The position numbers and the translations under genes are program-made. Under the pieces are notes generated by a model. It worked only from the letters and a program-made list of their open reading frames with translations. It was not told the origin of the DNA and searched no databases. A stretch of 37,958 nucleotides of DNA. It comes from an uncultured Flavobacteriales bacterium. GTDB taxonomy: Bacteria > Bacteroidota > Bacteroidia > Flavobacteriales_D > Sanyastnellaceae. The DNA lies in the NCBI GenBank assembly GCA_905479115.1, contig CAJQLF010000051.1, positions 1-37,958 of the forward strand, written 5' to 3'. This document shows positions 4,227 through 37,958 of this stretch, one piece after another. Position 1 is the first letter of the stretch, and each line of letters opens with the position of its first letter.

Positions 4227-7200
4227 ATGAGTCGAATCTTACTAACAGCAATATTTGGCCTGCTGGCCTTTGGCCTTGCAGCCCAAGTGGAATACACCAG
4301 CCAAAATGTTGCAGATCAAGCACCTTACGTGCAGCCTTCTGAGACTTCAATTGAGGGTGTGCTTGAGCGGTATGGTTCGTACAAGGGAGCGGTATTGAAT
4401 ATGACACGTGATGAGTGGGAGGTCATGCGGTCTTCGGATGTTTATGACCACGAAGAGGCCAAGCGTATTTTGAAGGAGCACAAGGCCAGGTGGAAGGCGG
4501 AACACGCGCAAGAGATTGCTGACCGAAAAGCGGAGCGCATGCAAATGACGGGTGGTTGTGATTGTTGGGTGGAGCCTGACGAATCCTATACCCTGATTAC
4601 CGAAGACGATCAATATTACACGGCTGGAGCAGGCATCAATGTTGATTTTTCAACACCGCCAATCCAGATGGGCTTTGATTTCAATCTCTATGGAATCACG
4701 TTTGATAATTTTTACCTGAACTCCAAGGGTTCGGTTTCTTTCGATAACTACACCATCGATTGGACACCGGAAGAGTTCCCCGTAACGACGGACGAGGTGG
4801 CTCAAATTGCGGGGTTTTGGGCCGATTCAGATTACCGATTGTCTGGAGATATTTACTATAAAGTGACGGAAAATGAAGTGCTTATTAACTTCATTGATGT
4901 GGGGTATTACAACATGGGAGAGGATCTTTATAACTCCTATCAAATCGTCATCACGAGCGAAGAATCAACGTATTTGCCGAACGGTGCGAACACGCAGATG
5001 TGCTACCTCGAAATGGATTGGGCACACGGCGATGTAGGGGGTTCGAGTGGTTGCTGCGGGGATAGCCCGGCTACGGTTGGTATCGATGCCGCTCCGGATT
5101 TTGGCCCCTTCCTGCAATTCGGTCGGTTTAATACCCTGGACGACACCTACAATGGGCCGCAGGGCACAGGTCCGGATGCGGACGATGGCGTGCATTGGCT
5201 GAATTACAGAAACTTCGTCATGGACTCCGCTGAGGACAGCGAGAACCTGGCCCCATTCCCTACGGCCAACGTGGGATGCGACACGGTATTTATGTGCTTG
5301 GGGAATACCTTCGACATGAACCTCAGCTTCCTCGGACCTGAGCCCAATCAGACCATTACCGTGACCTCCACGGATGTTCCCGGTTGGGATTACACCATCA
5401 CAGAGGAAGATGACTTGGCGAATATTACGGGGATTTTCACAGCTTTGCCTGAGAATGTAGGGATTCAGGAGATTACCATTACAGCGACAGATGACGGCAC
5501 ACCAGTGGGTGAAACGGTGACGACCTTGGTCTTCGAAGTCTTGGATATTGTTCTGCCAGAGTTGACCGTTGATGGCAACACCGCTATTTGTGCTGGAGGG
5601 GAGTTAACCCTAACGGCAACAGGTGACTTTGAAGAAATTGTGTGGTCCAATGGAACACCAGGGAACACGAACACCTACTCGTACGGGGGGACATTTTTTG
5701 TCACAGGTTACATCGACCAGTGCACCGTTGTTGAGGAGTTTTACGTTGATCAAAGCCCTTACTTTTTACCGGATGTTGTGGTAGATCCGGCTGCAGTTTG
5801 TCCAGGGCAAACCGCTTTGGTTGTAGTGGACTCGCTCGAGCAACTGGAGTACGATATTTATCAATGGGATGCAGATTGGAATGGATTGGGCGGAGAGGTG
5901 GTTTCCTATGTGGGTGACGCGGGAGCAGAACTCACCGCAGGGACCTACCGATTGTTGGTGACGGACGAGGATGGCTGTCAAGGACAGCGAGTCTTTATCA
6001 TTGAAACCATTGGATCCTTCATTCCGGAGGTAACCATTGATCCGTTCTGCGACGGCATTCCAAGTTCGGTTGTATTTGAAGGCGGTTTTTCCAGCCCGCA
6101 AGAGGGAGCATTCTTGGTTTACATGAGTTCTAACGAGTCTTCGGGTTGGGGAGGGAGTTACTTGGAGGTAATTATCAATGATGACAGCTATATCCTGACA
6201 TCGAGCAGTGCCTTCGAACAATTTGATTTTGACATTGTCGCAGGAGATAACATTGAGATCGTCTTTTATGAAGACGCCTCCATCGATTCGGATGTGCTTT
6301 CCGTCTCTGTCTACAACTGTGGGTTCTTGAATGCCACTCAAATCAGCGACTTGGGACCGGGCACGATTTTCACCTCTCCATCTGAATGCATCGCATCTCC
6401 AGCCACGGGCGAATGGACCTGCGTGTCTGCTCCAGTAGACGGTTGGGAGTTTACAAATACGGATCAATACGATACGGAGTTCATACCTACGAGTTACGGT
6501 CTCTATGAGATTTGCTTTGCTGAGGAGACGTGCCAGAGTGATTATTGCTACGACATTGAAATCACCGAGGAGCCTTCGGTGGAACTTACCGTCATCGATG
6601 ATTTGCTGTGCGATGGGGAGTCGGAGACGGTTTTTGCTGAAGTAGATGACATAGGAGGCACGGCAACGTTGAACTGGTCTGCTCCTGGGGATGATGATGT
6701 GGCGTTCAACGAGTTCTCATTTTCGAATACGACTACGTATAACGCATCCATTGTTGTAACCAATGGTTGTGGCTCTGCGTCAGCGTCCGTTCCGCTGTAT
6801 TCTCAATTCACGCCTGAACCGAGTTTGGAGGATGAAAATTTGTGTGAAGGCGGTGAAGTCTATTTAGATCCGACCAGCCCGGATACGCCAGATTTGGAGT
6901 TCGAGTGGTACTTCAATGGCAACTTGATTCCGGGTGAGATTGCAGAAGAATATTCCGCTGTTGAAACGGGAGAATTCTGTGTGGAGGTTTCAAATCAATG
7001 CGGACAAGGTGAAGCTTGCGCGGACATTAGCATCGTCGGCGATATTCCGCTTCCACTGGAGAGCATGACCATCGATTGCTTGGGAGATGGAGTAGGTGTC
7101 GTCATTCCTGACTTGCCTGATGGATATACCGTGGTATGGCCCGATGGTTCCACCGATTTGACGTGGGAAGTAATAGATGGGAGTGAATACGATGGACAAG

Positions 7201-7931
7201 ATATTTGCATGGACTATACCGATCCATTTGGTTGTGAGACCAACACCGTATGCTCTTATTTGTACATTGGTTTGCCACCGGCAATTGAGCCGGAACCATT
7301 CCTTGGAGAGGACGATGGGGTTGAGTACTGGACATGGTCGAACCCTTATCGTCAAATACCAGCTACTTCGCCTAATGGAGAAGATAATCCGCATTTGACG
7401 CTGTGTCCCGAAGTGGAGTACGATTTTGAGCTGCATGCTACCACATGGAATGGTACCGACTGGATCGATGGTGCTGGTGAATATGAGTGGTGGGTGGAGT
7501 GCCCGGACACGACGATTTACTTTGGCAATCCTGTGGACATCATGACCGTAGTGAGTTCAACCTTGAACCAAAATTGTTGGGAATACGGGATTGAATTGGT
7601 TGGATCAGCAATCAACCCTTGCGCAGTTGGTGGTGTGCGCCAAGAATGGGATGTCGTGATTGATTATTGTGCGTTGACCATCCCAAATGTCTTTACGCCT
7701 GATTACGGTGATGCCATGAATGAGGACTTCCACATTGAAGGCCTTGAAGTGTACGACAATGTTTACATGCGCATATACAACCGCTGGGGACAAGAGGTAT
7801 ACGCTAGTAACAATTACACCAATGAATCCGCGTGGCGTCCCAACAATGGTGAAACAGGAACGTACTGGTACAACTTGCGCCTACCAAGCGGCATTGAACA
7901 AAGTGGGCACGTGACGATTTTGCGCGACTGA
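4227..7931 (+). CDS. Large secreted protein: nidogen-like N-terminus, Ig/PKD-like modules, T9SS type B C-terminal domain
   Basis: 1234 residues. It opens with a Sec signal peptide (ILLTAIFGLLAFGLAAQ) and a charged helical stretch at about 50-105. Residues about 115-310 resemble the nidogen extracellular (NIDO) domain: DFNLYGITFDNFYLNSKGSV, IAGFWADSDYR, YNSYQIVIT and DWAHGDVGGSSGCCG. Several cysteine-containing Ig/PKD-like modules fill the middle. The last ~85 residues (IPNVFTPDYGD, MRIYNRWGQEVYAS, GTYWYNLRLPSG) form the gliding-motility-associated C-terminal domain used as a type B sorting signal by the type IX secretion system. The product is probably exported to the cell surface or medium as an adhesin or structural protein; the ligand is unknown. 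radA begins 12 bases downstream and may be cotranscribed. Confidence 0.9.
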   Translation: MSRILLTAIFGLLAFGLAAQVEYTSQNVADQAPYVQPSETSIEGVLERYGSYKGAVLNMTRDEWEVMRSSDVYDHEEAKRILKEHKARWKAEHAQEIADRKAERMQMTGGCDCWVEPDESYTLITEDDQYYTAGAGINVDFSTPPIQMGFDFNLYGITFDNFYLNSKGSVSFDNYTIDWTPEEFPVTTDEVAQIAGFWADSDYRLSGDIYYKVTENEVLINFIDVGYYNMGEDLYNSYQIVITSEESTYLPNGANTQMCYLEMDWAHGDVGGSSGCCGDSPATVGIDAAPDFGPFLQFGRFNTLDDTYNGPQGTGPDADDGVHWLNYRNFVMDSAEDSENLAPFPTANVGCDTVFMCLGNTFDMNLSFLGPEPNQTITVTSTDVPGWDYTITEEDDLANITGIFTALPENVGIQEITITATDDGTPVGETVTTLVFEVLDIVLPELTVDGNTAICAGGELTLTATGDFEEIVWSNGTPGNTNTYSYGGTFFVTGYIDQCTVVEEFYVDQSPYFLPDVVVDPAAVCPGQTALVVVDSLEQLEYDIYQWDADWNGLGGEVVSYVGDAGAELTAGTYRLLVTDEDGCQGQRVFIIETIGSFIPEVTIDPFCDGIPSSVVFEGGFSSPQEGAFLVYMSSNESSGWGGSYLEVIINDDSYILTSSSAFEQFDFDIVAGDNIEIVFYEDASIDSDVLSVSVYNCGFLNATQISDLGPGTIFTSPSECIASPATGEWTCVSAPVDGWEFTNTDQYDTEFIPTSYGLYEICFAEETCQSDYCYDIEITEEPSVELTVIDDLLCDGESETVFAEVDDIGGTATLNWSAPGDDDVAFNEFSFSNTTTYNASIVVTNGCGSASASVPLYSQFTPEPSLEDENLCEGGEVYLDPTSPDTPDLEFEWYFNGNLIPGEIAEEYSAVETGEFCVEVSNQCGQGEACADISIVGDIPLPLESMTIDCLGDGVGVVIPDLPDGYTVVWPDGSTDLTWEVIDGSEYDGQDICMDYTDPFGCETNTVCSYLYIGLPPAIEPEPFLGEDDGVEYWTWSNPYRQIPATSPNGEDNPHLTLCPEVEYDFELHATTWNGTDWIDGAGEYEWWVECPDTTIYFGNPVDIMTVVSSTLNQNCWEYGIELVGSAINPCAVGGVRQEWDVVIDYCALTIPNVFTPDYGDAMNEDFHIEGLEVYDNVYMRIYNRWGQEVYASNNYTNESAWRPNNGETGTYWYNLRLPSGIEQSGHVTILRD

Positions 7932-24397: not shown

Positions 24398-25267
24398 CTA
24401 ATGACCGAAGGAGTTAGGAATTCTCAACCCCTCAGCGTGCGTCAGTTCCATTCGGATTTTCCCAAATAAAATACGCGTTTCCGCATAGAGGGGAATGTGG
24501 GATGAATCATTGGTGACGTAAACGACCAGATCATTGGACTTTTTCCAGATTCGGCCCGTTTGAATCACGGGTTGAATCACAATGCATTCGTACTTTTTTC
24601 CATCCACTTTGATGGGTTTGATTCCTTGGTGAACAAGTTTCAATTCAAACCATTCTTCGTCCATGAACAGTGGAATTCCGGTGGTGTCGCCTTGTTGAAT
24701 TTGGTCCCATTTCACATTTCGAAGGGCGTACAGTGCGCTGACCATATCGTGACTCGTTTGGGGAAGCAAGTACGTGGCAATGACAGAATCCTGATCGCCT
24801 TTTTTTCGATGGGAATGAACGGTATTGCGTGTCCAGTCGAAGGCGTAGTCTTGTCTTAATTCATACCCTCCTTCGTGAATATCGCGATGGAAATGGAGCG
24901 GCAGTCCGCTGGCCGCATCGATGGTTGAGCGGTAGACGTCTTCGACCTTAAAGATCCACTTGAACGCGCCGGTCGTCCGACCTTCAACTAAAATTTCCCA
25001 AGACGGACCGTGCTGGCTTGGCGAAACTTGTGTGACCGAAATATCTGCTTGAGCCGCATGAATTAAACCGAATTGAAAAGTATAGCTCAGCGATTCACCG
25101 GGCTGGTAGACGGAACCGTTGGGGGTGAATGCCGGAAAAGGGTGAGGTGATATGGTATCAGCGTCAACCAGCGGCAGCTCTTGCGCCCGTGCGCCTAACA
25201 TAAGCGTGCTAGAAATGATCAGCGCGATTCCCGGAAGTAGATTCAAACGCTGAGGGTTGCTATGCAT
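24398..25267 (-). CDS. DUF3108 exported protein
   Basis: 289 residues from the ATG at 25267, with a Sec signal peptide (LLPGIALIISSTLMLGARAQ). The remainder matches the DUF3108 pattern: a Y-x-PGESLSYTFQFGLIHAA strand, FKVEDVYRSTIDAASGLPLH, and a late GRIWKKSNDLVVYVTNDSSH followed by ILFGKIRMEL. The fold is predicted to be a beta-rich envelope protein, likely periplasmic; its function is unknown. The start lies inside the ridA-like gene (25-base overlap), and kynA follows 27 bases downstream, so all are one transcription unit. The upstream frame to 25324 is shadow sequence. Confidence 0.82.
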   Translation of the reverse strand: MHSNPQRLNLLPGIALIISSTLMLGARAQELPLVDADTISPHPFPAFTPNGSVYQPGESLSYTFQFGLIHAAQADISVTQVSPSQHGPSWEILVEGRTTGAFKWIFKVEDVYRSTIDAASGLPLHFHRDIHEGGYELRQDYAFDWTRNTVHSHRKKGDQDSVIATYLLPQTSHDMVSALYALRNVKWDQIQQGDTTGIPLFMDEEWFELKLVHQGIKPIKVDGKKYECIVIQPVIQTGRIWKKSNDLVVYVTNDSSHIPLYAETRILFGKIRMELTHAEGLRIPNSFGH

Positions 25268-25662
25268 TTGAGTTCGATGGCAATGGGCGTTGGGAGCCGA
25301 TTGATTTCGACGGTTGTGCGGCAAGGCTGACTAGAGGGGTCAGGAAAATACGCCGCGTATATGCGATTGAACGTTCCAAAATCCCGCCTCATATCTACCA
25401 AGAAAACAGTAACATCTACCAAACTCTCCCAGTTGCTTTCGTTTGCCTCAAGAATGGCCTTCACATTCGCAAAAACGCTGTGAACCTGTGCGGCGAAATC
25501 AAAGGATTTGAAGTTTCCATTGTGATCCAATTCCAATCCAGGAATTCCGCTATCATTTTCGTCACTTCCAGCAATGCGCGGCCCGACACCACTTAAAAAC
25601 AAAAGATTGCCGACAGATTTGGTGTGGGGGTAATTGCCAACAGGCTTTGGTCCTTGATTCAT
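25243..25662 (-). CDS. RidA-family protein, probable 2-aminomuconate deaminase
   Basis: 139 residues from the ATG at 25662. RidA-family trimers hydrolyse enamines/imines. Here PKPVGNYPHTKSVGNLLFLS, VDVTVFLVDMRRDFGTFNRI and the catalytic-Arg segment PCRTTVEINRLPTPIAIELK (R115) resemble the branch described as 2-aminomuconate deaminase, which acts late in the 3-hydroxyanthranilate branch of tryptophan breakdown. It heads the operon that also encodes tryptophan 2,3-dioxygenase, which supports that reading. General reactive-intermediate detoxification is the alternative. A TTG at 25686 could extend the product by eight residues but falls within the predicted -7 box. It overlaps the DUF3108 gene by 25 bases. 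Confidence 0.85.
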   Translation of the reverse strand: MNQGPKPVGNYPHTKSVGNLLFLSGVGPRIAGSDENDSGIPGLELDHNGNFKSFDFAAQVHSVFANVKAILEANESNWESLVDVTVFLVDMRRDFGTFNRIYAAYFPDPSSQPCRTTVEINRLPTPIAIELKCIATLSV

Positions 25663-25683
25663 TCTTTTGGATGCTGTTAGAGG

Positions 25684-25691
25684 CAAAGATG
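25684..25691 (-). promoter_or_regulatory. Predicted -7 box of the ridA/kynA operon
   Basis: On the minus strand this reads CATCTTTG, the same octamer found before sod and rnr, 21 bases upstream of the ATG at 25662. A TTG lies about 24 bases further upstream, slightly far for a -33 element. Confidence 0.35.
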
Positions 25692-25768: not shown

Positions 25769-25799
25769 TTGCTTTTCATCGATAAAAGAAGTATTTTTA
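25769..25799 (+). promoter_or_regulatory. Predicted promoter of the cadherin-repeat gene
   Basis: TTG (25769-25771) and TATTTTTA (25792-25799) are separated by 20 bases, a good fit to the Bacteroidota promoter pattern. The box lies within the longest open frame from 25769, so translation should start downstream. A GAGGAA at about 25820-25825 precedes the ATG at 25838. Confidence 0.45.
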
Positions 25800-25837
25800 A
25801 CTTCTTTTTTTGGCTTTACGAGGAATATTTAATCCAC

Positions 25838-28800
25838 ATGACAAATTCGAACTTGATGTTTATCAGATGCACGGCCATCATCGTTTTGATGAATTGTGGG
25901 ATTTCAATGAGCGCTCAAAACACTCTGTCGGTTCCATTTACGAATGGGTTTGTGGGTACCGTAGGAAATAATTCAGCCAAGGCAGATAACATCCAAAGCT
26001 TTTCAACCTTGGGTTTGACTAAAGTGGATTTTGTACAAAACTCTTCTGGTGCGGTGTTCGAAATACAAGGCAACGATATACCAGGCCTTGTTCGTTTTGT
26101 GAGCATTACGGGCCAATCATTAGACATTGAAGGAGCGATTGTCTGGCGTGTCAACTCAGGTTCGACCATCGAGATTTTTGGGTTCATACCCGCCACGACC
26201 ACATCGGCGGTTAACTTGAGTACAATTGGAGCGAGCAACTATGTTTTAGATGCGTCATCGAACATTGGTATGCGCCCGAATGGTGGCACATTTGCCATTG
26301 TGGATGGCGATAATATCTCCGGGAACGCCGCTTCTGCAGGATTGTTAGACGCACTGAATGATTATCTCGCGACTGTTATTGCGAATAGGCCTGCAGGGTC
26401 TGTTACGGTGAATGATGAATCAACAACAAATTCAACACCAACACTCACAGGAACCGTTAATTACGATACAAGCGTCGGAGAAACCTTCACGGTGAATGTG
26501 GATGGGGTTACCTATACTACGACCAGTGGCATTTCAATTGTCAATCAAGATTGGTCGCTTACCCTGGGCGCAACATCCATCGGAACATATGAGGTTACGG
26601 CAGTTATTACAGATCAGTCGGGCTATACACTTTCTAATGTTGGGTCGCTGACCATATCGCCGCCGGACATTACACCTCCCTCGATTACTTCCGGCGCCAC
26701 AGGCACGGACCTGGTCGAGAATTCGGGAGCAGGCCAAACGATCTACACGATCACAGCTACGGACGCAGTGGGTGTGACGGGCTATGCGATCGCCGGCACG
26801 GACGCGGCTTTATTGAGTGTGAATGCTGCGACAGGAGTTGTGACATTGACAGCTGATCCGGATTATGAGGCGAAGAACTCCTATAGTTTCACGGTCACTG
26901 CGAGCGATGCTGCGACGAACACGAGTGCCCCAACCGCGGTCACGTTCTCGATCACGAATGTGGATGAAGTCAATCCGACCATCACTTCTGGCACGACAGG
27001 TACCAACATCACTGAGAATTCGGGTGCAGGTCAAACAGTTTACACGATTACATCGGACGCCAACGATGGTGGAACGATACAAAGCTTTGCCATCGCTGGC
27101 ACGGACGCTGCTTTATTAAGTGTGAATGCTGCGACAGGAGTTGTGACATTGACAGCTGATCCAGATTACGAGACGAAGAACTCCTACAGCTTTACGGTGA
27201 CTGCCACGGATGAAACGGGTACGAGCACGGCTACCACGGTCACGTTCTCGATTGTAGACGTCGATGACACGGCCCCTGTGATTACTTCCGGTGCCACAGG
27301 CACGGACCTGGTCGAGAATACGGGAGCAGGCCAAACGATCTACACGATCACAGCTACGGACGCAGTGGGTGTGACGAGTTATGCCATCGCCGGCACGGAC
27401 GCTGCTTTATTAAGTGTGAATGCTGCGACAGGAGTTGTGACATTGACAGCTGATCCGAACTTCAACACCAAGAGTTCTTACAGCTTCACGGTCACTGCGA
27501 GCGATGCTGCGACAAACACGAGTGATCCAACCACGGTCACGTTCTCGGTTACAAGTTCTGATGTCATTGCCCCTGTGATTACTTCCGGCGCCACAGGCAC
27601 GGACCTGGTCGAGAATTCGGGAGCAGGCCAAACGATCTACACGATCACAGCTACGGACGCAGTGGGTGTGACGGGCTATGCGATCGCCGGCACGGACGCG
27701 GCTTTATTGAGTGTGAATGCTGCGACAGGAGTTGTGACATTGACAGCTGATCCGGATTATGAGGCGAAGAACTCCTATAGTTTCACGGTCACTGCGAGCG
27801 ATGCTGCGACGAACACGAGTGCCCCAACCGCGGTCACGTTCTCGATCACGAATGTGGATGAAGTCAATCCGACCATCACTTCTGGCACGACAGGTACCAA
27901 CATCACTGAGAATTCGGGTGCAGGTCAAACAGTTTACACGATTACATCGGACGCCAACGATGGTGGAACGATACAAAGCTTTGCCATCGCTGGCACGGAC
28001 GCTGCTTTATTAAGTGTGAATGCTGCGACAGGAGTTGTGACATTGACAGCTGATCCAGATTACGAGACGAAGAACTCCTACAGCTTTACGGTGACTGCCA
28101 CGGATGAAACGGGTACGAGCACGGCTACCACGGTCACGTTCTCGATTGTAGACGTCGATGACACGGCCCCTGTGATTACTTCCGGTGCCACAGGCACGGA
28201 CCTGGTCGAGAATACGGGAGCAGGCCAAACGATCTACACGATCACAGCTACGGACGCAGTGGGTGTGACGAGTTATGCCATCGCCGGCACGGACGCTGCT
28301 TTATTAAGTGTGAATGCTGCGACAGGAGTTGTGACATTGACAGCTGATCCGAACTTCAACACCAAGAGTTCTTACAGCTTCACGGTCACTGCGAGCGATG
28401 CTGCGACAAACACGAGTGATCCAACCACGGTCACGTTCTCGGTTACGTTCTCTGTGGTGCACAACTTGAATGCATGTGATGGAGACTCAGATGCGACGAT
28501 TGATCTTGATGCGCTCCACTCTTCTAATGGTGTTTGGACCTATTCGTTGGACAGCGATATTTCGGGCTTTGCCTCCTCATCACTTCTTGGAAGTATTTTG
28601 ACTGTTGATTTCAGTGGGGCAAATACAGGATCTGGGACAATTGAGCTTTCCGCACAGAGTGGGGGCAATTCTGGAAGTATTGATGTTGTAGTGCAAGAAT
28701 CGCTCTATCCATATGTCACCAACATGGTGCCTGACGGATGTTCCAATGCCAATGCGGAAGACGGTGGTGCGGTCTTTACGTTTTCTGGAAATTACGGATC

Positions 28801-29056
28801 GCCGGTAACGGTGCACTATTATCTCAATGCGGTCAATATTTTCGATTCGGGGACGGCTAAGTTTGCAGGATATGGCGACGTTCAAACGAAGGACTCGGAT
28901 GCTTCAGGAAACTGGAAATCAGTGAGTAGTGGAGCTTACTGGTTGTATGGCTACACAAATGCTCGAGGATGCTTCAATCCAGAACCTGCAACGTCGGGTG
29001 TGCCGACATCCTCGCCAAAGATTAAGTTGTTGACCGTGCCCTACTTGCTTGATTAG
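25838..29056 (+). CDS. Exported cadherin-repeat protein with internal 298-residue duplication
   Basis: 1072 residues. A signal peptide ends near ISMSAQ. Residues to about 180 are a beta-rich region of no known family. A bacterial Ig-like module follows (TPTLTGTVNYDTSVGETFTV). From about 282 to 869 there are six cadherin-like modules of 99-100 residues, each with TSGATGTDLVENSGAGQ-type starts, GTDAALLSVNAATGVVTLTA, and a SYSFTVTASD strand with acidic Ca2+-binding-like sites. Modules 1-3 are repeated as 4-6 (listed separately). The ~200-residue C-terminus ends KLLTVPYLLD and is not a T9SS sorting domain I recognise. Probably a surface adhesin or spacer. ATG 25838 is chosen over the 25769 TTG because of the promoter; ATG 25856 is also possible. 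Confidence 0.85.
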   Translation: MTNSNLMFIRCTAIIVLMNCGISMSAQNTLSVPFTNGFVGTVGNNSAKADNIQSFSTLGLTKVDFVQNSSGAVFEIQGNDIPGLVRFVSITGQSLDIEGAIVWRVNSGSTIEIFGFIPATTTSAVNLSTIGASNYVLDASSNIGMRPNGGTFAIVDGDNISGNAASAGLLDALNDYLATVIANRPAGSVTVNDESTTNSTPTLTGTVNYDTSVGETFTVNVDGVTYTTTSGISIVNQDWSLTLGATSIGTYEVTAVITDQSGYTLSNVGSLTISPPDITPPSITSGATGTDLVENSGAGQTIYTITATDAVGVTGYAIAGTDAALLSVNAATGVVTLTADPDYEAKNSYSFTVTASDAATNTSAPTAVTFSITNVDEVNPTITSGTTGTNITENSGAGQTVYTITSDANDGGTIQSFAIAGTDAALLSVNAATGVVTLTADPDYETKNSYSFTVTATDETGTSTATTVTFSIVDVDDTAPVITSGATGTDLVENTGAGQTIYTITATDAVGVTSYAIAGTDAALLSVNAATGVVTLTADPNFNTKSSYSFTVTASDAATNTSDPTTVTFSVTSSDVIAPVITSGATGTDLVENSGAGQTIYTITATDAVGVTGYAIAGTDAALLSVNAATGVVTLTADPDYEAKNSYSFTVTASDAATNTSAPTAVTFSITNVDEVNPTITSGTTGTNITENSGAGQTVYTITSDANDGGTIQSFAIAGTDAALLSVNAATGVVTLTADPDYETKNSYSFTVTATDETGTSTATTVTFSIVDVDDTAPVITSGATGTDLVENTGAGQTIYTITATDAVGVTSYAIAGTDAALLSVNAATGVVTLTADPNFNTKSSYSFTVTASDAATNTSDPTTVTFSVTFSVVHNLNACDGDSDATIDLDALHSSNGVWTYSLDSDISGFASSSLLGSILTVDFSGANTGSGTIELSAQSGGNSGSIDVVVQESLYPYVTNMVPDGCSNANAEDGGAVFTFSGNYGSPVTVHYYLNAVNIFDSGTAKFAGYGDVQTKDSDASGNWKSVSSGAYWLYGYTNARGCFNPEPATSGVPTSSPKIKLLTVPYLLD
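26683..27552 (+). repeat. First copy of 870-bp direct repeat within the cadherin gene
   Basis: Encodes three cadherin-like modules with starts at 26684, 26981 and 27281 (297 and 300 bases apart). Read line by line against 27577-28446 I find no base difference. Only the 24-base linker 27553-27576 separates the two copies, giving a tandem period of 894 bases (298 codons). Confidence 0.9.
27577..28446 (+). repeat. Second copy of the 870-bp direct repeat
   Basis: Apparently identical to 26683-27552 and in the same reading frame, so the protein has six modules in place of three. Identity includes third codon positions, which implies a recent duplication, gene conversion, or an assembly effect. 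Sequence diverges immediately after GTTCTCGGTTAC at 28446. Confidence 0.9.
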
Positions 29057-29066
29057 GACTGAGATT

Positions 29067-29100
29067 TTTGTTCTGATCGCTTTGGAATTGGATATCTTAG
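29067..29100 (+). promoter_or_regulatory. Predicted promoter of pepP
   Basis: TTTG (29067-29070) and TATCTTAG (29093-29100) are 22 bases apart, matching the Bacteroidota pattern apart from one base in the -7 box. The box ends four bases before the ATG at 29105, so the mRNA may be leaderless. Confidence 0.45.
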
Positions 29101-29104
29101 CGAC

Positions 29105-30394
29105 ATGCGATACCAATCCCTCTCTTCAGAATTGTACACGCGCAATCGCGCAAACTTTATGAAGGAAATGAAGCCGCGGAGCATTGCGGTTTTCTTTTCG
29201 AACGACATCTATCCCACCAGTGCAGACGGCACGTTGCCGTTCAAGCAGGCGAGCGATATTTTGTGGTTGACGGGTGTTGACCAAGAGAATACGGTGTTGG
29301 TTTTATTCCCAGATGCCCACAATCCAGCGGACCGTGAGATTTTGTTCACCACCGAGACCAACGAGGAACTGGCCATATGGGAAGGAGCGAAATTGGACAA
29401 AAAACAAGCAACAGCGGCGACAGGGATCGCCAACATTCAATGGACGCCAGGTTTTGAGCGTACGTTTCATCGCCTCATGTCGGAGGCTGACGCGTTGTAT
29501 TTGAATGACAACCCCCATGCACGTGCCAAGATTATCGTGGAAACACGCACAGCGCGTGAGAATGCGGCGCTGCGAGAGAAGTATCCCAACTACGAAATTG
29601 AACGTTCTGCACCGATTTTATTCAGTCTGCGTGCGATTAAATCACAGGAAGAGGTGGAACAAATGCAGCGTGCCTGCGACATCACCAAAGCGGGGTTTGA
29701 GCGTGTCTTGCAATTCGTAAAACCGGGTGTGATGGAATACGAGATTGAAGCGGAATTCATGCACGAATTCTTGCGCCGTGGTTCCCGTGGATTTGCCTAC
29801 ACGCCGATCATCGGAAGCGGATTCAACGCCTGCGTTCTGCATTACATCGAAAACAGCTACGAGTGCAAGGCGGGCGACGTCATTTTGATGGACGTCGGAG
29901 CGGAATACGGCAACTACGCCTCTGACATGACGCGGTGTGTGCCGGTGAGCGGCAAGTTCACAGACCGCCAACGCGCGGTGTACAATTCCGTTTTAAGCGT
30001 GATGCGCGGTGCGATGAAACTGCTGCGTCCGGGCGTGAGTCTTCACGAATACCATATCCAAGTGGGCGAACTGATGACCAAGGAATTGCTCGATTTAGGG
30101 CTGATCACCGCTGAAGAAGTCGCCAACGAAAATCCAGCATGGCCCGCATACAAGAAGTACTTCATGCACGGGACATCCCACTTCATAGGCCTCGACGTCC
30201 ATGATGTTGGGCACTGGCATGAGCCGATTCAAGCAGGACACGTCTTCACCGTGGAGCCGGGCATTTATATCCGGGAAGAAAACCTTGGTATTCGCCTCGA
30301 AAACGACATCTTGATCACGGAGGACGGCTTCGTCGATCTCATGGGGCACATTCCGCTCGAAGCTGATGAGATTGAGGCGATGATGGCAGGCTAA
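29105..30394 (+). CDS. pepP: Xaa-Pro aminopeptidase (M24B family)
   Basis: 429 residues. It removes the N-terminal residue from peptides with proline in second place, using two divalent metal ions. The N-terminal creatinase-like domain (SDILWLTGVDQENTVLVLFP) precedes the pita-bread catalytic domain. Predicted metal ligands are D263 and D274 (LMDVGAEYGNYASDMTR), H359 (MHGTSHFIGLDVHD), E384 (TVEPGIYI) and E399 (GIRLEND), all present. There is no signal peptide, so it should be cytoplasmic. Its TAA lies seven bases from the end of the convergent thioredoxin-like gene. Confidence 0.94.
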   Translation: MRYQSLSSELYTRNRANFMKEMKPRSIAVFFSNDIYPTSADGTLPFKQASDILWLTGVDQENTVLVLFPDAHNPADREILFTTETNEELAIWEGAKLDKKQATAATGIANIQWTPGFERTFHRLMSEADALYLNDNPHARAKIIVETRTARENAALREKYPNYEIERSAPILFSLRAIKSQEEVEQMQRACDITKAGFERVLQFVKPGVMEYEIEAEFMHEFLRRGSRGFAYTPIIGSGFNACVLHYIENSYECKAGDVILMDVGAEYGNYASDMTRCVPVSGKFTDRQRAVYNSVLSVMRGAMKLLRPGVSLHEYHIQVGELMTKELLDLGLITAEEVANENPAWPAYKKYFMHGTSHFIGLDVHDVGHWHEPIQAGHVFTVEPGIYIREENLGIRLENDILITEDGFVDLMGHIPLEADEIEAMMAG

Positions 30395-35445: not shown

Positions 35446-37958
35446 ATGACCATGAATCGCTTGACTCGACTTACCACCGTGACGGCATGTGCTGTCTTCT
35501 TCTTTTTGTCTCTTTTTACTTCATCGGCTCAGGCCCAATTTTTGGGCCTCCAAAGTGAAGTTTTGGCGGAGACTGAGTTGGGAACGACCTACAGGGTCTA
35601 TGCGGAATTTGCATCGGCATCAGATGAGTGCATTGCGGTGTATTCAGTGGGGACGTCCGAGTGTGTGGAGAATGATGAGAACAACAACTGCATCCAAATG
35701 GGTCCTTTGCTGCTCGAACTTGGCGTGACGACCGCATTTTTTCAGCACCCGGCTGCGGGGGACATGGGATCAGGCATTAACCCATTCTTTTTCCCATTTT
35801 ATCCGGAAATGGAATACGATAGTTGGCTGACCATTGGTTCCTCCTCTACCAATGACGAGGCGGTAAGTAACATCGGAATGGTTTCGGATTTGGCAGAATT
35901 TGCTTCGGGAACCGGTTTTGTAATGGATGAGACGGTCGGAGGAAGTTGGTACGTTACACCCGGAGCCAATCCAGCGGCCATGGCTGGAGATGACGGGTTG
36001 GTATTGCTCGGGCAATTCACAGCAGTTGACGATGCAAATGGAAATCCTGGACACGTGACCTGCCTCTGGAATATCCAATGGCGCAATAACGTTGGTGTAT
36101 CGTTTAAAGAAACCGGGATTACACATGACACTTCGGGTGACGGAACCGTTTCGGGTTGCATGGACGCTTCGGCGTGCAATTACAACGCCAGCGCAACAGC
36201 CAGCGATGATGGTTGCGCTTTTGCGACGGGATGCGATGTCTGCGGCGGAAACGCGACGGACGGGACGGGCTCCGTGGTGGACAACGATGCCGATAACGAT
36301 GGCGTTTGCGACGTGGACGAAATTGCCGGTTGCCAGAATAGCGCGGCCTGCAATTACAATGCTTCCGCTACGGATGCGGCGACTTGCCTGTATGCGACCG
36401 GATGCGATGTATGTGCGGGGAACCCTACCAACGGCACCGGAACAGTATTAGACCTCGATGCCGACAACGATGGCGTGTGCGACGAGGACGAAATTGCGGG
36501 CTGCCAAAACAGCTCCGCGTGCAATTACGACGCGAGCGCCACCGACTCGGGCACGGCGTGTGTTTTCCCTTTTGGCTGTGAAACGTGTTCCGGAGAAACG
36601 AATGGAACAGGGACGGTCGTTGACAATGATTCGGACGGGGATGGCGTCTGCGATGCAGATGAAATTTCCGGTTGCCAAGTCGCCTCAGCCTGTAACTACA
36701 ACGCCTCAGCTACGGACGCCGGAACCGTGTGCATTTACGCGGCGGGTTGTGAATCATGCTCGGGACCGACCGACGGTACAGGAACCATATTGGCCAATGA
36801 CGACGACAACGATGGCGTGTGCAATGCAGATGAAATCGCAGGCTGCCAAAACAGCGCAGCGTGCAACTACAACGCCTCCGCTACGGATGCGGCTGACTGC
36901 ATCTTCGCTACGGGCTGCGACGAATGCCAAGGCAATCCAACGGATGGGACAGGATCGGTCAACGACCTCGACGCCGATAACGATGGCGTCTGCGATGCAG
37001 ATGAAATTGCCGGTTGCCAGAGCACCTCAGCGTGCAACTACAATGCTTCTGCGACGGATTCCGCCACGTGTTTATTCGCCACAGGCTGCGATGTGTGCGC
37101 AGGCAATGCGACGGACGGCACTGGAACGGTAACAGACCTCGACGCCGATAACGATGGCGTGTGTGACGCAGACGAAATTGCCGGTTGCCAGAGCACCTCA
37201 GCGTGCAACTACAATGCGAGTGCTACCGATTCGGGTTCGGCGTGCATCTTCCCATCGGGCTGCGAAACCTGCTCAGGGGCAACCGATGGCACAGGCACGG
37301 TCCTGGCCAATGACGACGACGATGACGGGGTGTGCAACGCGGACGAAATTGCCGGTTGCCAGAACAGCAATGCGTGCAACTACGATGAGAGCGCAACCGA
37401 TGGCGGCGTGACATGCGTCTATGCCACGGGCTGTGAAACGTGCTCTGGAGCGACCGATGGCTCCGGTACGGTCGTGGACAATGACGCGGACAATGATAGC
37501 GTATGCGATGCGGACGAAGTAGCGGGTTGTCAGAACAGCACCGCTTGCAATTACAATGCAAGCGCGACGGATCCTGGTGCCACCTGCATCTTCCCCCAAG
37601 GCTGTGAAACATGCTCTGGTGAAACCAACGGCAACGGAACGATTGTGGACAATGATGCTGACAACGACGGCGTGTGTGATGCGGACGAAACGGCGGGTTG
37701 TCAAGATAACACGGCATGCAACTACGATGCCAATGCCACCAACGGAGGCATCGCTTGCGTGTACGCCAGCGGTTGCGATTATTGTTCAGGCGAAACGGAC
37801 GGTTCGGGCACGATTGTCAACGGAGATGTCGATGCCGACGATGTCTGCGACGTAAACGAAATCCCCGGTTGCCAAGACCCTGTCGCATGCAATTACAATG
37901 AAGCGGCAACCGATGAAGACAATTCCTGCACGTACGAAGTATTGGGCTACGACTGCAA
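35446..37958 (+). CDS. Secreted Cys/Asp-rich repeat protein, truncated by the window end
   Basis: 837 codons are visible with no stop. A signal peptide (LTTVTACAVFFFLSLFTSSAQAQ) is followed by a ~210-residue N-terminal domain of unknown family containing paired cysteines and long hydrophobic beta strands. From residue 237 onward is a repeat array of about 57 residues per unit. Each unit starts GCQ-x3-ACNYNASATD, holds six cysteines, and ends with an aspartate-rich DADNDGVCDADE run like the Ca2+-binding loop of thrombospondin type 3 repeats. Similar arrays occur in T9SS-exported proteins of marine Flavobacteriia, but any sorting domain lies beyond the window. ATG 35446 is used; ATG 35452 in the same frame is equally possible. 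Confidence 0.88.
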   Translation, partial: MTMNRLTRLTTVTACAVFFFLSLFTSSAQAQFLGLQSEVLAETELGTTYRVYAEFASASDECIAVYSVGTSECVENDENNNCIQMGPLLLELGVTTAFFQHPAAGDMGSGINPFFFPFYPEMEYDSWLTIGSSSTNDEAVSNIGMVSDLAEFASGTGFVMDETVGGSWYVTPGANPAAMAGDDGLVLLGQFTAVDDANGNPGHVTCLWNIQWRNNVGVSFKETGITHDTSGDGTVSGCMDASACNYNASATASDDGCAFATGCDVCGGNATDGTGSVVDNDADNDGVCDVDEIAGCQNSAACNYNASATDAATCLYATGCDVCAGNPTNGTGTVLDLDADNDGVCDEDEIAGCQNSSACNYDASATDSGTACVFPFGCETCSGETNGTGTVVDNDSDGDGVCDADEISGCQVASACNYNASATDAGTVCIYAAGCESCSGPTDGTGTILANDDDNDGVCNADEIAGCQNSAACNYNASATDAADCIFATGCDECQGNPTDGTGSVNDLDADNDGVCDADEIAGCQSTSACNYNASATDSATCLFATGCDVCAGNATDGTGTVTDLDADNDGVCDADEIAGCQSTSACNYNASATDSGSACIFPSGCETCSGATDGTGTVLANDDDDDGVCNADEIAGCQNSNACNYDESATDGGVTCVYATGCETCSGATDGSGTVVDNDADNDSVCDADEVAGCQNSTACNYNASATDPGATCIFPQGCETCSGETNGNGTIVDNDADNDGVCDADETAGCQDNTACNYDANATNGGIACVYASGCDYCSGETDGSGTIVNGDVDADDVCDVNEIPGCQDPVACNYNEAATDEDNSCTYEVLGYDC
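36154..37958 (+). repeat. Array of 57-residue (171-bp) GC...ACNY / Asp-rich repeats
   Basis: Ten complete units lie at 36154-37866 (571 codons, 57-58 per unit) and an eleventh starts at 37867. Conserved positions are Cys at 2, 8, about 20, 26, 29 and 51, and the Asp run at about 42-54. Units vary mainly in the segment between the third and fourth Cys. Units 5 to 7 share the longest DNA matches, for example GACCTCGACGCCGATAACGA in units 5 and 6. Confidence 0.9.

Follow-up and report, generated by a model that had tools for sequence, protein, structure and literature searches.

A probably very recent tandem duplication of a three-module cadherin block, of unproven copy number, in a predicted bacterial surface-stalk gene

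The window analysed here, a whole contig of 37,958 nucleotides from an uncultured Flavobacteriales bacterium (assembly GCA_905479115.1, contig CAJQLF010000051.1), carries a gene for a putative surface stalk in which a block of three cadherin modules, A-B-C, stands twice in tandem (Table 1). This is probably a real and very recent block duplication, although its copy number is unproven. A first-pass annotation had described an exact, in-frame 870-base duplication with a 24-base spacer inside a cadherin-repeat gene, and a search for maximal exact direct repeats in the window returned it at the same positions: the copies agree at 870/870 bases with an offset of 894 bases, and the identity ends immediately at either edge. 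The nature of the gene is also borne out, the protein matching Pfam family PF00028 in six stretches (E 1.2e-49, 167.1 bits against a curated cut-off of 28.8). The reading frame is open through the whole array (ORF 25769-29056), C1 is joined to A2 by a normal inter-module linker that keeps the frame, and TRF reports a single array at 26683-28446 with a period of 297 and 5.9 copies, modules A, B and C being 297, 300 and 297 bases long. The next-longest exact direct repeats in the window measure 65 bases and all lie within the same array; outside it, none of 60 bases or more occurs in 131,790 bases of the genome (the window and six further stretches), and module A has no match in the 69-contig genome apart from the six array modules.

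The preferred reading, held with moderate confidence, is that a recent, recombination-driven tandem duplication of the three-module block lengthened the stalk. An ancestral A-B-C stalk would have become A-B-C-A-B-C, most likely through unequal homologous recombination between similar modules, and the identity of the blocks would then be true in the cell rather than smoothed by the assembler. The product is predicted to be an exported, rod-like surface protein, with a distal head, the cadherin stalk, and a C-terminal module whose probable role is to hold the protein in place or to export it. The likely signal peptide has its first ATG at 25838, and Big_13 (residues 189-272) is the only domain that Pfam recognises in the head, with no adhesive domain among its matches. 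Structure prediction for the head is poor (mean pLDDT 49.3) and exceeds 50 only in the last ~100 residues, the Ig-like part. Relatives of the head are present in two of the 22 genus genomes, the window's own and G015 (53% identity), and a short-pattern scan of genome contigs found others in two alphaproteobacterial MAGs (L009:6001-6876 and L010:6001-6783), near the starts of two reading frames, one of 396 aa that a contig end truncates and one of 729 aa. The 38-39% identity of these two suggests a transfer of the head between phyla.

Table 1. Coordinates of the repeat-stalk gene, its parts and its neighbours in the window.
Feature	Position	Strand	Remarks
RidA / L-PSP family gene	25243..25686	-	left slot border
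Repeat-stalk surface-protein gene	25838..29056	+	1,072 aa from ATG 25838; mechanical ORF from TTG 25769
Head	25838..26680	+	signal-peptide-like start (by eye), uncharacterised domain, Big_13 Ig-like domain
First 870-base copy	26683..27552	+	
Cadherin module A1	26687..26983	+	A2 = 27581-27877
Cadherin module B1	26984..27283	+	B2 = 27878-28177
Cadherin module C1	27284..27580	+	C2 = 28178-28447, shortened where the C-terminal module starts
24-base linker	27553..27576	+	end of module C1; resembles other inter-module linkers
Second 870-base copy	27577..28446	+	identical to first
C-terminal module	28448..29053	+	202 aa; common to all five slot genes and two genus genes elsewhere
pepP (Xaa-Pro aminopeptidase)	29105..30394	+	right slot border

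The modules inside a block differ from one another, as had been noted at first reading, with nucleotide identities of 74.1% for A-B, 85.5% for A-C and 74.8% for B-C. Synonymous divergence by NG86 amounts to a dS of 0.36 for A-C, 0.77 for B-C and 1.0 for A-B. Between the two blocks the assembly has zero differences over 289 codons and ~225.7 synonymous sites, which by the rule of three puts their dS below ~0.013 and, to the extent that the assembly is reliable, supports the proposal of a very recent three-module expansion. For pepP, taken as a yardstick, dS is at least 1.65 to the eight of 15 congeners that gave values and is saturated for the other seven; G003, whose pepP is cut by a contig end, does not enter this comparison. 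The congener G004 has a single cadherin module in the same slot, with 80% protein identity, against the six of the window gene. It is synonymously saturated, its NG86 dS exceeding 2 in all three comparisons with A, B and C, which fits an origin of the copies after the split from G004, although the single module could instead be a separate acquisition. From these comparisons the doubling of the block is probably the youngest event in the array.

Could the identity have been maintained rather than newly made? Ongoing gene conversion, an alternative that the first-pass annotation had also offered, could have held the copies of an older duplication identical; it would require exchange between repeats, and there are signs that this has happened between modules that are not identical. 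B and C have an identical 65-base core, and their longest run of same-residue codons without a synonymous change spans 21 codons, a length reached in 78 of 20,000 shuffles; on these grounds the modules have probably exchanged sequence at an earlier time. The corresponding run for A-B is 14 codons (603/20,000 shuffles), while the A-C run falls short of significance (28 codons, 1,734/20,000), and the G004 module has runs of only 5, 4 and 3 codons against A, B and C. Conversion may thus have helped, but the whole 870-base block is perfect while A, B and C differ from one another by 14-26%, and a recent duplication is the simpler explanation. Maintenance by conversion is quite improbable as the main cause.

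A more serious challenge to a recent duplication comes from the assembly itself. The genome consists of 69 contigs totalling 2.27 Mb, and the nine whose lengths were seen measure 5.6-53 kb. Among the stretches of this genome that were read, the start of contig C52 overlaps that of contig C10 by exactly 127 bases; no such overlap turned up at either end of the window. Contigs from a de Bruijn graph built with k=127 meet in 127-base overlaps, as SPAdes-type assemblers leave them, so this one contig pair makes the genome seem to be a short-read de Bruijn assembly. In such a graph an 870-base repeat, far longer than 127 bases and beyond the span of short reads, is a single looped node whose multiplicity is chosen by the program, and a copy number of two with exact identity is then weakly supported. 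The array as assembled might accordingly be in part a product of the program, the node having been traversed as often as a fixed rule or a guess from coverage dictated, with two, three or more blocks in the true array and small differences smoothed away. The excerpts of PMC8021871 used here describe metagenome assemblers as masking small differences, and metaSPAdes as collapsing most strain differences; those of PMC9704523 state that repeats of this kind are not accurately resolvable with short reads. Against a purely artificial origin stands the junction from C through the linker to A, which is short enough to be covered by single reads, placing at least one tandem junction in the sampled DNA, and which is distinct from both the head-A junction and that between C and the C-terminal module. 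As this junction exists in frame with a normal linker, the assembled sequence is evidence that the sampled DNA contained no fewer than two blocks, or else a mixed set of molecules some of which had them. On the same ground, an accidental joining of unrelated contigs was rejected. That the array is partly an assembly product falls only slightly short of being probable, and 'exactly two' and 'exactly identical' are decisions of the assembler. The caution about assembly error voiced in the first-pass annotation was thus right, and the 127-base overlap sharpens it. It also carries a warning of wider use: when an exact repeat in a short-read genome is several times the length of k, its assembly is no evidence of copy number.

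Near its right end the window carries another repetitive gene (35446-37958, + strand), with approximately eight 171-base repeats of a cysteine-rich CNYN type, that runs off the contig end. The end of this gene is matched on five other contigs of the same genome. On three of them (C42, C17, C36) the match lies within ~850 bases of the contig start, from which assembly breaks may tend to fall near CNYN-type repeats; on C6 and C59 it lies further inside.

Duplication of cadherin modules in blocks has parallels elsewhere. Among relatives of the host, the cadherin block finds matches at E 0.001 in three of 22 genus genomes, with G003 marginal (E 8e-4, 27% identity), and at E 1e-30 in two of 399 order genomes and in four of 395 phylum genomes, the last four being the window's own and three of another family. 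In a plasmid collection 14 records match, the best being from Comamonas endophytica. Its giant protein WP_263726043.1 (4,321 residues), one of the bacterial proteins built of PF00028 modules, aligns with 93% of the three-module query at 53% identity, but the longest exact direct repeat in its gene is 151 bases as against 870 here. Exact repeats in the other cadherin arrays read do not exceed 196 bases; the Comamonas record is a complete plasmid, whereas the others belong to fragmented genomes, from which longer exact repeats could be missing. One array (L098) has exact repeats with periods of two and three modules (600 and 888 bases), so that block duplication is not unusual in kind, and what is notable about the present one is its length and its three-module period. 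Carriage of the block by phages was considered and is unsupported, none of eight pattern matches in viral contigs being confirmed and phage records giving no match.

Among known systems the closest likeness is to the Periscope Proteins (SasG, Rib, Sgo_0707), which in the excerpts of PMC8201768 and PMC9704523 used here are single-chain surface rods, as predicted for the window protein, with an N-terminal head and tandem folded domains in highly identical copies, and for which a change of length by homologous recombination has been proposed. In the window protein, unlike in those proteins as excerpted, identity is found between three-module blocks, and depends on the assembler, while neighbouring modules are only 73% (A-B) and 84% (C-A) identical in protein; in addition, its C-terminal module has no significant match to a Pfam or NCBIfam family, and its host is one of the Bacteroidota, judging by the type B T9SS sorting domain of a protein encoded at 4227-7931 of the window. 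The same excerpts raise a misfolding problem for identical neighbouring domains. Doubling a block of three unlike modules would make the stalk longer while leaving identical domains three apart. Should long reads confirm the array, this would be a cadherin-module surface rod lengthened in just that manner, a possible way round the misfolding of identical neighbours. By analogy with the Periscope Proteins, block number might differ between cells of one population, with selection acting on stalk length in a phase-like manner; the repeat architecture fits, and congeners carry six and one modules. However, repeat number in Periscope Proteins is described as varying among strains, whereas the difference seen here lies between species, each represented by one genome, and we regard population-level variation as unlikely. 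The fibrillar adhesins, in the excerpted account of PMC9210967, have the same layout of head, stalk and anchor, but they combine a known adhesive domain with a stalk, whereas the window protein pairs stalk-type repeats with a head in which Pfam finds no adhesive domain. In the open-licence literature on Periscope Proteins, fibrillar adhesins, assemblers and T9SS, searched by subject rather than by the name of the slot, none of the titles found concerned this gene or slot.

The C-terminal module is undescribed and is proposed as a putative anchor or secretion module. Like the sorting domains of type IX secretion, it is a fixed C-terminal module behind unrelated passengers, and the genome does encode a protein with a type B sorting domain, but a known type A or B sorting domain was rejected since no sorting-domain model in NCBIfam or Pfam matched: the seven members scanned had no NCBIfam match of any kind at E up to 1, and Pfam gave nothing significant, only E 0.05 and 0.18 for one member each. 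A likeness to CFA/I fimbrial subunit B in a PDB profile search (E 0.19 and 0.22) is too weak for use, and structure prediction of the module alone was useless (mean pLDDT 32.2). The module reaches six of 22 genus genomes and eight of 114 family genomes, the same eight being the only carriers among 399 order genomes; the two outside the genus have weak, partial matches (E 8e-21 and 3e-20). Within the genus, G009 and G015 carry it at other loci behind other fronts. Where it meets the cadherin array (28433-28452), ACGTTCTC occurs twice, 12 bases apart and in frame.

The place of the gene, between ridA and pepP, is itself variable. At a threshold of E 1e-60, pepP was found in 17 of the 22 genus genomes, counting that of the window, and all 17 regions were read. 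A large gene fills the gap in four (the window, G004, G012 and G015), and in the other 13 only 58 to 319 bases separate the ridA and pepP matches, which leaves no room for a gene of this size, so that the slot was called empty. One of these 13, G014, carries its gene beyond pepP instead, and after that gene comes a decayed remnant of the 3' end of a second pepP (L070:4290-4448). That piece agrees with the pepP of G011 at 134 of 159 bases and with G014's own at 124, and by this likeness it is possibly the trace of an import from a relative. The five genes have three kinds of head, one common to the window and G015, another to G004 and G012, and a third in G014. Stalks differ as well: six cadherin modules in the window, one (by Pfam) with other repeats in G004, cysteine-rich CNYD-type repeats by eye in G012 and G015, and short repeats, also by eye, in G014; Pfam at E 0.01 found nothing in the proteins of G012, G014 and G015. 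Yet the C-terminal module is common to all five, at 40-66% identity, and that of the window is nearest to G004 (56%, against 44% to G015), although the window's head is common with G015 and absent from G004. Head and tail therefore have different histories. Tentatively, the ridA-pepP gap may be a surface-protein exchange site in the genus, where incoming genes have a C-terminal anchor or export module in common while heads and whole stalks (cadherin, CNYD-type and others) are swapped between species by recombination, and where stalk length is tuned by block duplication, perhaps within populations; taken as a whole, this is somewhat unlikely. The mosaic slot and its common C-terminal module nevertheless deserve more attention than the duplication. 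A slot with one shared module and differing heads and stalks is a clear place to study surface change in such bacteria.

The surroundings of the slot vary too. Beside it in the window lies a DUF3108 gene (24398-25324, - strand) that is patchy across the genus: tblastn found no match in the regions read from G005, G006, G008, G009, G015 and G020, and in these six a tryptophan-dioxygenase-like gene adjoins ridA. On the other side, a GGTATCTTCG-like box stands directly before the pepP ATG in 17/17 genomes, whether the slot is full or empty (29085-29105 in the window, where it reads GGATATCTTAG). We take it to resemble the Bacteroidota -7 element, in which case the pepP transcript would be nearly leaderless.
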